NCBI RefSeq assembly: GCF_024171815.1
Contig: NZ_JAMTCJ010000004.1
Location: forward strand, 62,001-126,000
Source of the DNA: Williamsia maris
Lineage (GTDB): Bacteria > Actinomycetota > Actinomycetes > Mycobacteriales > Mycobacteriaceae
Reading direction: 5' to 3'
DNA: 64,000 nt
A program made the translations under genes and the position numbers. The notes below the pieces were generated by a model, which was not told the DNA's origin, searched no databases, and worked only from the letters and a program-made list of their open reading frames with translations. This document shows, piece after piece, positions 13,536 to 33,086 of the stretch (positions within the stretch are counted from its first letter, which is position 1; each line of letters starts with the position of its first letter).

Positions 13536-13551
13536 ACTTCTCCTACGTCGC

Positions 13552-13773
13552 CGCACCATGGGAGAGCGTCGGGTCAGCCACGGCTGGTCCCGGCCGCCGA
13601 AGGAGCAACACCTCTCCGTCAATCTCTCAGGCATCCAGGACCGTGGTGCGCTACGACGTCTCTGGAAAGTGGTGACCCCGGTCGCCCGCCCACGGTGAAA
13701 GGCCGCGCCTCGCGCAGCTGAATCTCTCAGGCGCCTGAGTCCGACCGCGAGGTCGGGCGAGAGCAGGACAGAG
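13552..13773 (+). ncRNA. Tandem glycine riboswitch upstream of gcvP
   Basis: Two glycine aptamers lie head to tail. Aptamer I spans 13552-13650, closed by a 10-bp P1 (13552-13561 with 13641-13650), and shows the conserved CCGAAGGAGCAA and AATCTCTCAGGCA cores. Aptamer II spans 13660-13773, closed by CTCTG (13660-13664) with CAGAG (13769-13773), with GTGAAAGG and a second AATCTCTCAGGCGCC core. The linker is nine bases. This is the standard cooperative tandem architecture that switches on glycine-degrading genes when glycine is plentiful. The downstream gene, gcvP, is the expected target. Confidence 0.93.
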
Positions 13774-27208: not shown

Positions 27209-28159
27209 TCATCCGGCGGTGACGAGCCTGCTCAACTCGGTGAGCCATGGGATGGCGACGGCCAGTGTCGGCAGGACCAGGATTCCCGCGGCCGCGACAT
27301 ATGCGACCAATCCGGCCAGGCGCGCCGGACGATCGTGGCTGAGCCGCTGCACGCGGGTCAGCGTCGTCGGGCCGCCGACCGCGAGCGCACCGCGCGGAGC
27401 GACCGAGTCGGCGCAGGCGACGAGGGCCCGACCGAGCGGCGTCGGGCCGGTGGCGCGGACCGCGTGGTCGTCGGCGAGGACCTCGACCAACAGCTGGACC
27501 GCGCCCAACGCGGACTTGCTGCGGATGAATCGGGGGAAGGCGGCGTGGACCGCGATGAACGCCTCGAGGATGAGGTCGTGGCGTGCCCGCAGGTGTGCCC
27601 GCTCATGGGTGATGACCGCCTCGAGTTCGTCGCGGCTCAACCGGGAGATCACGCCCTCGCTCAGGACGACGCGCTGGCGCAACCCGGGGAGGCAGTAGGC
27701 GATGGGCTGTTCCACCTCGAGCATGCGAACGTCGCGGGCGAGGAACCGATGGTCGGACCGGCTGCGGTCGACCCGGTCGAGGAGGTCGATGAGCTGGCGA
27801 TGAGCCGAACGCCGCGCGCGTGTGCGGACACCGACGCGCACCGTGGTGTACATCAGCCGGGCGCCGATCATCAGGGTGAGCGCGAAGACGCCGACGTAGA
27901 CCAGCCACAGCACGACGCCGAGCGACTTGATCTCGTCCAACGGGTTGGTGGTCGGGCGACCGTCGGGACCGGGGACCAGCAGGTTCGCCGCGATCGCCAG
28001 GCCGCAGCTGAACGCCGAGAGGACGGCGGCGAGGGCGATCGACTGCCACAGGGCCATCGCGGCGCGCGGGGCGTGCAACGGCCAACGGGCCCGGGAGAGC
28101 CACTCCGCCACGGGACCTGTCAGAGCCAGGGCGAAGATCCCGAATACGAGGGCGGTCAT
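27209..28159 (-). CDS. M56-family membrane metallopeptidase (BlaR1-like, Rv1845c type)
   Basis: The 316-residue membrane protease has the zinc motif HERAH (His185, Glu186, His189) with downstream acidic residues (EVLADDHAVRATG) completing the site. About four hydrophobic stretches flank it (VFGIFALALTGPVAEWL, ALWQSIALAAVLSAFSCGLA, VVLWLVYVGVFALTLMIG, and a C-terminal VAAAGILVLPTLAVAIPW). It lacks the penicillin-binding sensor domain of staphylococcal BlaR1, as does Rv1845c. In the related systems this peptidase inactivates the repressor BlaI, whose gene lies 108 bp upstream in the same direction. The signal may be cell-wall stress; target unknown. Confidence 0.9.
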   Translation of the reverse strand: MTALVFGIFALALTGPVAEWLSRARWPLHAPRAAMALWQSIALAAVLSAFSCGLAIAANLLVPGPDGRPTTNPLDEIKSLGVVLWLVYVGVFALTLMIGARLMYTTVRVGVRTRARRSAHRQLIDLLDRVDRSRSDHRFLARDVRMLEVEQPIAYCLPGLRQRVVLSEGVISRLSRDELEAVITHERAHLRARHDLILEAFIAVHAAFPRFIRSKSALGAVQLLVEVLADDHAVRATGPTPLGRALVACADSVAPRGALAVGGPTTLTRVQRLSHDRPARLAGLVAYVAAAGILVLPTLAVAIPWLTELSRLVTAG

Positions 28160-28267
28160 CGACGATTCCTACGGCTGTTGGTACGTGTCCGACGGACCGG
28201 GCACGGTGGCCGATCAGCCGATTCTACCTGTGTGGCGACGGTGCCCACGAGCGATCAGCGGACTCGT

Positions 28268-28657
28268 TCAGCGGTTCCGCGACTCGGACTGCGCGGCCTC
28301 GAGTTCGTCGAGGGCGCGGCGCAGGGCGTCGGCCTCGTCGGCGCCGACCCGACCCACGAACGAGACGAGTGCGGCGTGGCGGGAGGTGGACTCGTCGGCC
28401 TCGCTCAGTGCGTCGACCATCAGGCTCGCCACGAGGTGTTCGCGCGGGTGGGTCGGGGAGTACTGGTGGGCGCGGTCGTCGCGGATCTGCGTGACCAGGT
28501 CTTTCTTCGCCAGACGTTGCAGGACGGTCATCACCGTGGTGTACGCCAGCTCGCGGTCGCGGGACAGTGCCGCGTGGACCTGGCGCACCGTTTGCGGGGT
28601 GTCACTGGACCACAGGTTGTCCATGACCGCACGTTCCAGATCGCCCAAGCCGCTCAT
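28268..28657 (-). CDS. blaI: BlaI/MecI-type transcriptional repressor
   Basis: This 129-residue winged-helix repressor matches M. tuberculosis BlaI closely: LGDLERAVMDNLW, QTVRQVHAALSR, the recognition region AYTTVMTVLQRLAKKDLVTQ, and DDRAHQYSPTHPREHLVASL, followed by the dimerisation helices (EADALRRALDELEAA). ATG 28657 gives the same N-terminal boundary as Rv1846c. It regulates its own operon with the M56 peptidase, and in M. tuberculosis also beta-lactamase and ATP synthase genes. I could not find a clear BlaI dyad in the flanking DNA by eye. The sRNA-like transcript (28787 on) diverges from it. Confidence 0.93.
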   Translation of the reverse strand: MSGLGDLERAVMDNLWSSDTPQTVRQVHAALSRDRELAYTTVMTVLQRLAKKDLVTQIRDDRAHQYSPTHPREHLVASLMVDALSEADESTSRHAALVSFVGRVGADEADALRRALDELEAAQSESRNR

Positions 28658-28751
28658 CCTCCCGAGTTTACCGATGAAGTCCGTTTCCGGAGCCACCGCA
28701 TGGGTGGACGCTCCGTTCGGTTTCCCCCGCAGCGCCCCGGTTGGGCCGCTG

Positions 28752-28782
28752 TTGACACATGAATAAGGGTAGCCTATCTTTA
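28752..28782 (+). promoter_or_regulatory. Strong sigma-A-type promoter overlapped by IdeR/DtxR-like iron box
   Basis: TTGACA (28752-28757) is followed by a 17-base spacer and TATCTT (28775-28780), close to the housekeeping -35 and -10 consensus. A 19-bp imperfect dyad at 28764-28782 matches the IdeR consensus TTAGGTTAGSCTWACCTAA at 14 of 19 positions by my count, taking S as C and W as A, and covers the -10 box. That arrangement predicts repression by iron-loaded IdeR. The initiation site would be about 28786-28788. Confidence 0.7.
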
Positions 28783-28786
28783 GATC

Positions 28787-28882
28787 AACGTCGGACCGAG
28801 TGAGTGTCCTGAGGGCTGCAGAGACCCCCGGTCCACGCCACGGCAGGCCCCACGCCCCCAGGGTGTGGGGCTTGCCGGTTTT
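28787..28882 (+). ncRNA. mrsI: Small RNA, probable MrsI (ncRv11846) homologue
   Basis: In M. tuberculosis the iron-responsive sRNA MrsI is encoded on the plus strand between blaI (Rv1846c) and Rv1847 and is controlled by IdeR. This window has the same gene neighbours and, in the gap, a strong promoter with an IdeR-like box (28752-28782) and a transcript of about 95 nt ending in an intrinsic terminator (12-bp stem, TTTT). No ORF with a Shine-Dalgarno lies in it. The 5' part 28787-28840 is likely the regulatory region; its base-pairing target cannot be assigned by eye. Identification rests on synteny and signals, since I have not aligned the sequence to MrsI. Confidence 0.75.
28841..28882 (+). 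terminator. Intrinsic terminator of the sRNA
   Basis: GGCAGGCCCCAC (28842-28853) pairs with GTGGGGCTTGCC (28865-28876) over 12 bp with one G-U; three further pairs extend into the loop. TTTT (28879-28882) follows after GG. There is no gene directly upstream on this strand, so it ends a noncoding transcript. Confidence 0.8.
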
Positions 28883-28947
28883 CCGGGGCAGGTCGTCGTT
28901 CGACGGTGACATAGGGTCGCAGGCACACCGACCGTGAAGGAGCCCCC

Positions 28948-29367
28948 GTGGCAGACGAACCGTTGTCCATCGGCACCGAGCCCTCGGGCCTCGACGCGAC
29001 ACTGGGTTTCGAGTACCAGACGATGAGCGGCGACGGGTCGGTCGCGACGTTCGACGCGGGTTCCGTGCACCACCAGCCCGACGGGATCGTCCACGGCGGC
29101 ACCTACTGTGCGCTGGTCGAGTCGCTGGCCAGTGTCTCGGCCGCGATGTGGCTGCAGGAGAAAGGCCTCCCGCCCACGGTCGTCGGGGTCAACAACTCCA
29201 CCGACTTCCTCAAGTCGGTCCGCTCGGGTGTCGTGACCGGTCGCGCCGTGCCGATCCACCGTGGCCGGTCGTCGCAGCTGTGGCAGGTCGACGTGACCGA
29301 CGCCGACGACCGCCTGCTGGCGCAGGGACGTGTCCGGCTGCAGAACCTCGACGGTCGTCCGTCCTGA
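28948..29367 (+). CDS. PaaI-type hotdog thioesterase, Rv1847 type
   Basis: The 139-residue hotdog-fold protein shows the PaaI/thioesterase pattern: LGFEYQTMSGDGSVATFDAG, then HHQPDGIVHGGTYCALVES with the catalytic region HGGTYCALVE, SAAMWL, and NNSTDFLKSVRSGVVTGR. It should hydrolyse an acyl-CoA or aryl-CoA ester in the cytoplasm; the substrate is not evident. GTG 28948 has AAGGAG six bases upstream. It is preceded by the MrsI-like sRNA and followed after 7 bp by the citrate-lyase-like gene, so the two are likely cotranscribed, whereas in M. tuberculosis Rv1847 is followed directly by urease. Confidence 0.9.
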   Translation: MADEPLSIGTEPSGLDATLGFEYQTMSGDGSVATFDAGSVHHQPDGIVHGGTYCALVESLASVSAAMWLQEKGLPPTVVGVNNSTDFLKSVRSGVVTGRAVPIHRGRSSQLWQVDVTDADDRLLAQGRVRLQNLDGRPS

Positions 29368-29374
29368 CCGGCCG

Positions 29375-30637
29375 ATGACCGAAGGAATCGACACCACGGG
29401 CCTGCGTGCACGCGCGCAGATGCGCATGGACGCTCTGCTGCGCGAGGTCGACGCCGAGCTCGCCGCCGGATACCCGGATGCACGCGCCGAGACCCAACCC
29501 GTGCACACCGTCTACGTCCCCGCCGACGCGGTGGGTTCCGACACCGTCGCCCAATGGGGCGCTCGTGCAGTCGAACTGGCCGAGTCGGTGCGACCCACGC
29601 TGGTCGAACTGTCCTCGGAGGACGCGGTCGACACCATGCTCACCCGCCTGCGGGCCGCCCCGATCGAGGATCTGCGGATCGACCTCGAGGACGGCTACGG
29701 CTGGCGCGACGACGCGGTCGAGGACCGGCACGCCCGGGCGGCCGGCGCGGTGTTGGCGCAGTGGAGCGCGTCGGGGTCGGGCCCGCGCCTGAGCTCCGGT
29801 GTCCGGTGCAAGGGGCTCGGCCCGCTCGAGCGGGCTCGTGGCCTGCGCACGATGGAGGCGGTTCTCGACGGCGCGGGCGGCGTCCCCGAGGGCTTCGTCT
29901 TCACGGTCCCGAAGCTGCGGGCGGTCGCCCAGGTCGACGCGGTGGTCGCGCTGTGCGAGGAGATCGAGCGAGCACACGGACTCGCGCCGATGACGGTGCG
30001 ATTCGAGTTGCAGATCGAGAGCCCGCAGGCGGTGGTCGGTGCCTCCGGTACCGCGACCGTGGCGCAGGCCATCCATCGGTCCGGCCCGCGCCTGAGCGGA
30101 TTGCACTACGGCACCTACGATTACAGCGCGGCCTGTGGGATCGTGTCGGCGTACCAGTCGCTCGAACACCCGGTCGCCGATCACGCCAAGGCCGTCATGC
30201 TCGCGTCGGCCGCCCAGACCGGCGTCTGGGTCTGTGACGGGTCCACGCAGATCGTCCCCACCGGTGACGCCGCGCAGGTCGACTCCGCCGTGCGGCGCCA
30301 CCACCGACTCGTCCGGCGTTCGCTGGAGCGGGGCTTCTACCAGGGGTGGGACATGCACCCCGGGCACCTCGTCACGCGATGGCTGGCGGTGCAGACGTTC
30401 TTCGCCGACGCCATGCCCGCGGCGACCGCCCGTCTGCAGCGCTACCTCGAACGCGCCGAGACCGACGGGACCGGCGATGCGACCGATGGCGGTGTGATGG
30501 ACGAACCGGCCACCGCGCGGGCGTTGGCCGGTGTCCTGGTCCGCGGGTGGGGTGTGGACGCGTTCGAACCCGCGCACGTGGCCGCCATCGGATCACTGTG
30601 TACACCCGAACGGGTCGCCCCGCTGGCCGGCGGCTGA
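29375..30637 (+). CDS. HpcH/HpaI aldolase / citrate lyase-like protein (DUF6986 type)
   Basis: The 420-residue TIM-barrel protein carries citrate-lyase-beta-type segments: DLRIDLEDGYGWRDD, with the metal-binding Glu-Asp, FVFTVPKLRAVAQVDAVV, RFELQIESPQAVVG and GLHYGTYDYSAACGI. These match the family called DUF6986 in actinobacteria. It likely binds Mg and cleaves or forms a C-C bond, such as between a CoA ester and a keto acid. It is inserted between the thioesterase and the urease operon, a position absent from M. tuberculosis. ATG 29375 lies seven bases after the thioesterase stop. Its substrate is unknown. Confidence 0.75.
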   Translation: MTEGIDTTGLRARAQMRMDALLREVDAELAAGYPDARAETQPVHTVYVPADAVGSDTVAQWGARAVELAESVRPTLVELSSEDAVDTMLTRLRAAPIEDLRIDLEDGYGWRDDAVEDRHARAAGAVLAQWSASGSGPRLSSGVRCKGLGPLERARGLRTMEAVLDGAGGVPEGFVFTVPKLRAVAQVDAVVALCEEIERAHGLAPMTVRFELQIESPQAVVGASGTATVAQAIHRSGPRLSGLHYGTYDYSAACGIVSAYQSLEHPVADHAKAVMLASAAQTGVWVCDGSTQIVPTGDAAQVDSAVRRHHRLVRRSLERGFYQGWDMHPGHLVTRWLAVQTFFADAMPAATARLQRYLERAETDGTGDATDGGVMDEPATARALAGVLVRGWGVDAFEPAHVAAIGSLCTPERVAPLAGG

Positions 30638-31364: not shown

Positions 31365-33086
31365 ATGGCCTCTCTCAGCAGAGCGCGATACGCGGAACTG
31401 TTCGGCCCCACCGTCGGTGACCGGATCCGGCTGGCCGACACCGACCTGTTGATCGAGGTGACCGAGGACCGCTGTGGCGGTCCCGGGCTCGCCGGCGAGG
31501 AGGCGGTCTTCGGCGGCGGCAAGGTCATCCGGGAATCGATGGGTCAGTCGCGGGCGACCCGCGCCGAGGGCAGTCCCGACACCGTCATCACCGGCGTGGT
31601 GGTCCTCGACCACTGGGGGATCATCAAGGCCGACCTGGGGATCCGGGACGGTCGGATCGTCGCGTTGGGCAAGGCGGGCAACCCCGACACGATGGACGGC
31701 GTCCACCCGCAGCTCGTGATCGGCCCGTCGACCGAGGTGATCGCGGGCAACGGCAAGATCGTCACGGCGGGCGGCATCGACTGCCACGTCCACTTCATCG
31801 CCCCGCAGATCATGGAGGAGGCGCTGGGCAACGGCGTCACCACCCTGATCGGCGGCGGAACCGGGCCGGCCGAGGGCAGCAAGGCGACCACCGTGACCCC
31901 CGGCGCATGGCATCTCGCGTCGATGATGGCCGCGACCGATCACTGGCCGATGAACATCGTGCTTCTCGGCAAGGGCAACACCGTCGGCGTCGAGTCGATG
32001 CGCGAGCAGATCCTCGCCGGCGCCTCCGGGTTCAAGGTGCACGAGGACTGGGGGAGCACCCCCGCGGCGATCGACGCCTGCCTGCGCGTCGCCGACGAGT
32101 TCGGCGTGCAGGTGGCCCTGCACTCCGACACCCTCAACGAGGCCGGGTTCGTCGAGCAGACCATCGGAGCCATCGCCGGACGCGGCATCCACGCGTACCA
32201 CACCGAGGGTGCAGGCGGCGGACACGCGCCCGACATCATCACCGTCGCAGGCCTTCCCAACATCCTGCCCAGTTCGACCAACCCCACCCGGCCGCACACC
32301 GTCAACACCCTCGACGAGCACCTCGACATGCTGATGGTCTGCCACCACCTCAATCCCAGCGTCCCCGAGGATCTGGCGTTCGCCGAGAGCCGTATCCGGC
32401 CGTCGACGATCGCCGCCGAGGATCTGCTGCACGACCTGGGTGCCATCTCGATGATCGGCTCCGACGCCCAGGCGATGGGTCGCGTCGGCGAGGTGGTGCT
32501 GCGGACATGGCAGACCGCCCACGTGATGAAGGGGCGGCGCGGGTCGCTCGCGGGCGACACCACCGCCGACAACAACCGCGCCCGCCGCTACATCGCGAAG
32601 TACACGATCTGTCCGGCCATCGCGCATGGCCTCGACGACGAGATCGGCTCGGTCGAGGTGGGCAAGCTCGCCGACCTCGTGCTGTGGGAACCGGCGTTCT
32701 TCGGCATCCGTCCCCACGTGGTCGTCAAGGGCGGCGCCATTGCATGGGCGGCGATGGGGGACGCGAACGCGTCCATCCCCACACCGCAGCCGGTGTTGCC
32801 GCGCCCCATGTTCGGCGCCGCGCCCCCGGTGGCCGCCGACACCTCGCTCACGTTCGTCGCCCAGCAGGCCCTCGACGACGGGCTCGCCGACCGGATCGGG
32901 CTCCGACGCCGACTCGCACCGGTCAAGAACGTCCGGGCCGTGGGCAAGAAGGACATGCCGCTCAACGACGCCCAGCCCGAGATCGTGGTGGACCCGGACA
33001 CCTTCACCGTCCGGATCGACGGTGAGGTGTGGGCCGAGCAGCCCGCCACGTCGTTGCCGATGGCCCAGCGCTACTTCCTGTTCTGA
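31365..33086 (+). CDS. ureC: Urease subunit alpha (catalytic, Ni)
   Basis: This 573-residue catalytic subunit contains the binuclear nickel site. [15 protein letters not shown] carries His141 and His143; the carbamylated lysine is Lys224 in [10 protein letters not shown]; further ligands lie in [13 protein letters not shown] and [10 protein letters not shown]. The mobile flap [20 protein letters not shown] holds the catalytic His. Length (family about 567-575) and the C-terminal PMAQRYFLF are intact, so the enzyme should be functional if nickel is supplied by the UreF/UreG/UreD chaperones. It lies between ureB and ureF with single-base gaps. Confidence 0.98.

Follow-up and report, generated by a model that had tools for sequence, protein, structure and literature searches.

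Positions 28787–28882 of the analysed stretch of Williamsia maris DNA (64,000 nt, referred to as the window) very probably encode an orthologue of MrsI, i.e., a trans-acting small RNA under control of IdeR. Documented here are how it is built, how it is conserved and covaries, that the same genome encodes an IdeR orthologue, and that seed-complementary sites are enriched in bfrA leaders of relatives bearing MrsI. While this kind of RNA is already known, its range is wider than is described in the available portions of the open-licence literature searched.

Anatomy of the predicted RNA

The predicted RNA is situated in a gap that an earlier note on this sequence had described as lying between blaI and an Rv1847-type thioesterase gene, and the PF03965 and PF03061 genes on either side bear this out (Table 1). 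Among PDB entries, the BlaI encoded in the window matched 2g9w alone, which we take to be M. tuberculosis Rv1846c.

Table 1. Predicted features at and around the RNA (positions in the window)
Feature	Position	Strand	Basis or remark
M56/M48 peptidase, BlaR1-like neighbour of blaI	27209..28159	-	PF05569 + PF01435
blaI, penicillinase repressor family	28268..28657	-	PF03965; divergent neighbour of the predicted RNA
–35 element TTGACA	28752..28757	+	Promoter scan; relatives have TTGAC-/TTGC-type hexamers at the equivalent position
IdeR box TAAGGGTAGCCTATCTTTA	28764..28782	+	Predicted; overlaps the –10 element
–10 element TATCTT	28775..28780	+	Promoter scan; 17-nt spacer from the –35 element
Predicted MrsI-family small RNA	28787..28882	+	Ends inferred; ~96 nt
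5′ stem-loop domain	28793..28834	+	RNAalifold and pair counts
Outer stem P1	28793–28800 with 28828–28834	+	RNAalifold and pair counts
Inner stem P2	28806–28811 with 28819–28825	+	RNAalifold and pair counts
7-nt apical loop AGGGCUG, presumed seed	28812..28818	+	GGGCUG pairs with CAGCCC
Terminator hairpin, 17 pairs	28841..28877	+	Predicted fold; followed by G and TTTT at 28879–28882
4HBT thioesterase, in the position of Rv1847	28948..29367	+	PF03061; relatives adjoin the RNA in other loci

Scanning of positions 27500–30200 yielded a single promoter-like site, i.e., the TTGACA-N17-TATCTT pair that had been recognized before (10/12 matches; mean of 0.1 in shuffles). The predicted IdeR box TAAGGGTAGCCTATCTTTA agrees with a looser form of the IdeR consensus, TWAGGTWAGSCTWACCTWA, at 16/19 positions, and it is the one site in the 64-kb window with at most three mismatches to TWAGGTWAGSCTWACCTWA (0 in 100 shuffles). 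Against the strict consensus TTAGGTTAGSCTAACCTAA, as given in the available portion of PMC10317159, our recount returned 14/19 positions, and both this value and the coordinates of the box over the –10 element agree with the earlier note. Of the 27 thioesterase loci that carry the core sequence of the RNA, 26 also have a box of 14–17/19 upstream of it, and one of 15–16/19 was found in all 18 titled loci examined (a subset of those matched by the covariance model R1, see below). Moreover, the genome to which the window belongs encodes an IdeR orthologue (E 5.4e-108 to IdeR 1fx7), and a DtxR-family regulator is present in 8/8 genomes of the genus.

For the predicted transcript, the folding energy is –57.4 kcal/mol, compared to –41.0 ± 3.7 kcal/mol for shuffles (z –4.46; 0/200 as low). 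The terminator had previously been read as a 12-bp stem followed by TTTT, of which the hairpin and the TTTT stand, whereas the stem comprises 17 pairs in the predicted fold. A terminator pattern scan looking for 5 T in 8 left this hairpin unflagged; its T tract is short.

Twenty-six RNA sequences, including that of the window, were aligned with MAFFT. Both-sided changes were observed in 19 of the 29 consensus pairs (15/15 in the terminator and 4/14 in the 5′ domain), and paired cells amounted to 95.0%, compared to 85.0% after shuffling (0/500 as high) and 38–46% when the partners were slid. The apical loop AGGGCUG was kept in 25 of the 26 aligned sequences, with L017 carrying UGGGCUG instead, and it is unchanged in two Nocardia sequences in which the loop-closing stem reads CCG/CGG and not CUG/CAG. 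Of 16 mycobacterial loci examined among the titled loci listed, 15 carry the core CCTGAGGGCTGCAG unchanged, making it less divergent than the earlier note had expected. Separately, one locus (L025, from genome G031 of genus g25) keeps the loop AGGGCUG, but its outer stem differs and an IdeR box is lacking; R1 matches its genome weakly (E 3.6e-4).

That the stretch is a small IdeR-controlled protein gene is exceedingly unlikely. In favour of such a gene, two of the three frames are mostly stop-free (stops in 3, 5, and 24 of the 26 sequences), as is expected at high G+C. Against it speak the compensatory base-pair changes and the length from the core to the end, which is spread over all remainders modulo 3 (10, 9, and 7 of the 26).

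The element is located upstream of the thioesterase gene and on the same strand, both in the window and in its relatives, and might thus be taken for a 5′ leader (attenuator) of that gene instead of an independent RNA. This reading is nevertheless improbable in the light of three features. The conserved domain is followed by a strong hairpin, conservation is highest in an exposed loop and not at a site near the gene, and the distance between RNA and thioesterase varies greatly among loci, with the core lying ~1.4 kb upstream in L032 and ~0.5 kb upstream in L016, L023, L030, and L034.

Rfam 15 returned nothing at its gathering score at the RNA, either in the window or in nine carrying loci (eight relatives and the window's own), so that routine annotation probably omits it. 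A weak match to RF01066 (20.1 bits, positions 28810–28880) could suggest a 6C/B11-family RNA placed here by chance, since it runs via C-rich stretches and two hairpins, which this likewise actinobacterial family has in common with the element. However, the match stays far from the gathering score of 47 and includes several non-standard pairs, the conserved loop is AGGGCUG and not a C-run, and RF01066 reached its gathering score in none of the nine loci scanned (eight relatives and the window's own), making such a placement highly improbable next to an independent MrsI-type RNA. Elsewhere in the window, Rfam placed a glycine riboswitch aptamer at 13549–13653 (plus strand, 56.7 bits), and Rfam 15 placed RF02514 (5′ ureB sRNA) at 31526–31818 (minus strand, 46.1 bits), antisense to ureC. 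RF02514 also scored in five of the nine relative or own loci scanned with Rfam, and these matches probably correspond to conserved urease coding sequence and not to an RNA.

Link to mycobacterial MrsI

The original paper on MrsI is reportedly that of Gerrick et al. 2018. According to the available portions of PMC8628891 and PMC11188477, MrsI is encoded at 2096766–2096867 of H37Rv, between blaI and Rv1847 on the plus strand, as an RNA of ~100 nt with an IdeR site at its promoter, a 6-nt seed within a 7-nt apical loop, and a predicted 3′ terminator; the targets given for it are bfrA, hypF, and fprA. The element in the window resembles this RNA (ncRv11846; M. tuberculosis and M. smegmatis) in its gap, strand, IdeR box, loop, terminator, and length, in line with the identity proposed for it earlier. 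It differs in belonging to a different genus, where neither of the reported targets bfrA and hypF exceeded the cut-off (see below).

A covariance model, R1, was built from 26 family members including the window, where it matches positions 28791–28884 with 101.9 bits (the window being among its 26 source sequences). At least 80 titled loci, mostly mycobacterial, were fetched with the 2g9w sequence, and none of them had been used to build R1; those listed carry a BlaI of up to 96% identity to the 2g9w query. R1 matched 68 of the 80 titled loci listed (50–96 bits; E 1.9e-15 to 6.5e-7), each time on the strand divergent from blaI (68/68). In 66 of these 68, a relative of the thioesterase followed on the same strand ~0.6 kb or less downstream, the two exceptions being L108, whose sequence stops next to the RNA, and L081, which gave no thioesterase relative. 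The listed loci gave 51 further R1 matches on the opposite strand (E 0.0024 to 0.87), which resemble these hairpins read in reverse.

The earlier note had suggested a covariance search against ncRv11846 and had named a lack of conservation with MrsI as an argument against its own reading. The R1 matches show such conservation, in that they link the element to the blaI–thioesterase gaps of the titled mycobacterial loci, with H37Rv itself lying outside this set. In the window, a DUF6986/HpcH-like gene (29375–30637) separates the thioesterase gene from the urease genes, while ureA lies close behind the thioesterase gene in titled loci of mycobacteria (e.g., L069 and L105).

The 12 listed titled loci without an R1 match were six from Mycolicibacter, L101, L131, L141, and three from Nocardia, the latter having no thioesterase in the stretch. 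All six listed Mycolicibacter loci (L128, L129, L130, L135, L136, and L137) have both blaI and the thioesterase with no MrsI match between them, which suggests that the RNA was likely lost there, within the mycobacteria.

RyhB is an enterobacterial, Fur-controlled RNA that is made at low iron and lowers dispensable iron proteins. The RNA described here would work similarly, with IdeR in the place of Fur, a likeness drawn here for function. In the available portion of PMC8628891, MrsI is termed an ortholog of RyhB.

Range across the family and order

Searches with the thioesterase gave 36 loci, of which L009–L014 were weak paralogue matches without the core. Among the 30 others (L001–L008 and L015–L036), the core CCTGAGGGCTGCAG was present with at most two changes upstream of the thioesterase in 27, and it was not found within the stretch fetched for L027, L031, and L035.

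With R1 at E <= 0.001, matches were obtained in 305 of 401 family genomes (two matches in four of the 305) and in 22 of 31 genera. Since R1 was made from the same family, this within-family count lacks independence for the genera that supplied its sequences. All eight genomes of the window's genus were among those matched, and the extension beyond Mycobacterium that had been anticipated is thus observed. R1 gave no match in the sampled genomes of nine genera (g3, g4, g5, g8, g12, g14, g15, g18, and g31). In a sample of the order, R1 matched 48 of 298 genomes, 45 of them from the same family. The hits outside the family (G523, G576, and G594; 40–41 bits) were terminator hairpins only, and were rejected since they had no core within two changes and their best IdeR boxes did not exceed 12/19. 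Within this order sample and under the stricter filters of the large search, the RNA thus seems to be restricted to a single family.

No text on MrsI beyond mycobacteria was found in the open-licence literature, as far as the available portions of PMC8628891, PMC11188477, PMC3388012, PMC7029489, PMC10986025, PMC8600241, and PMC10317159 extend. An RNA described in mycobacteria thereby becomes family-wide. It now has a covariance model and a seed that hardly varies, and some lineages naturally lack it (6/6 listed titled Mycolicibacter loci and the nine sampled genera), which allows its targets to be searched for by genome comparison. It is of interest for its wide range, for the lack of an Rfam match, and for the targets missing from the window's genus.

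Seed pairing and candidate targets

We infer transcription, an iron response, and repression by the RNA along the following lines. When iron is plentiful, Fe-IdeR would sit on the box over the –10 element and block the promoter, while under iron shortage IdeR would leave and the ~96-nt RNA would be made, ending at its 3′ hairpin. The loop AGGGCUG, exposed in the 5′ domain, would then pair through GGGCUG with CAGCCC in mRNA leaders, and this pairing would lower the expression of dispensable iron proteins.

Bacterioferritin (TIGR00754) was found above the family cut-off with 59 matches in 57 of the 131 genomes searched, and 58 bfrA leaders (–90 to +15) were examined, leaving out the second copy of G161. 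CAGCCC, the complement of GGGCUG, occurred in 29 of the 50 leaders from genomes with MrsI vs. none of the eight from genomes without it, in a small comparison that ignores kinship and in which five of the eight MrsI-less leaders stem from one genus. G129 and G144, which are not among the R1-matched genomes, were counted as MrsI-less. When all leaders were shuffled, 2.2 on average and at most 6 contained CAGCCC. When one leader per genus was taken, CAGCCC was present in 6/14, while 300 shuffles gave 0.6 on average and at most 4. Across leaders and first codons, it was the second commonest 6-mer after GGCGAC, which was taken for coding sequence, and in the non-coding part it was the 6-mer common to the most genera (6/14). 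Computed duplexes ranged from –11.5 to –16.7 kcal/mol. CAGCCC was absent from the L157 leader, and from all examined bfrA leaders of 8 of the 14 genera that have both MrsI and bfrA. For hypF as a conserved target, no support was obtained, with CAGCCC at most 200 nt upstream of the match in one of four MrsI-bearing hypF genomes (G022); it was likewise upstream of hypF in none of three genomes of other families in the order.

Within the window's genus, neither bacterioferritin (TIGR00754) nor HypF (TIGR00143) was found above cut-off in the eight genomes. Since these genomes do have the RNA, its targets here must differ, and the genus constitutes a natural experiment, in which the RNA is present while two targets reported for it were not found. 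A target is no part of the RNA, so that the missing bfrA and hypF limit the claim on function and not that on homology. Seven other genera in which the RNA is present (g6, g10, g13, g20, g22, g28, and g30) likewise had no bacterioferritin over the cut-off in the sampled genomes, bringing the MrsI-bearing genera of this kind to 8/22, the window's included. In the window's genus, the RNA would act on mRNAs other than bfrA and hypF. A tentative proposal, to which we assign a little less than an even chance, is that MrsI is ancient and common to the whole family, with a core regulon unlike the mycobacterial one, to which bfrA was perhaps added in some lineages. Since the loop is kept in genera with no bacterioferritin above cut-off, and in the window's genus with no HypF either, a further target set would then have to exist.

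Several candidate targets were considered and rejected. Leaders of ferritin/Dps-type genes in the genus (14 matches found) contained CAGCCC in one of the 11 read (G004). In the window's own genome, a near-full complement of the core gave seven matches, including MrsI itself, and a rough look at the other six revealed no clear leader; the reversed-pattern control gave 43, i.e., the complement is the rarer of the two. A leader-like complement pattern was likewise rarer than its reversed control (5 vs. 29 matches in the same genome), with two of its matches inside long open frames and three before frames of 8–88 codons. Finally, and apart from these candidates, an IdeR-box-like sequence (gaggtaaggttagccttaccc) was observed in locus L213 (genome G006), immediately upstream of the ferritin gene and adjoining its start.
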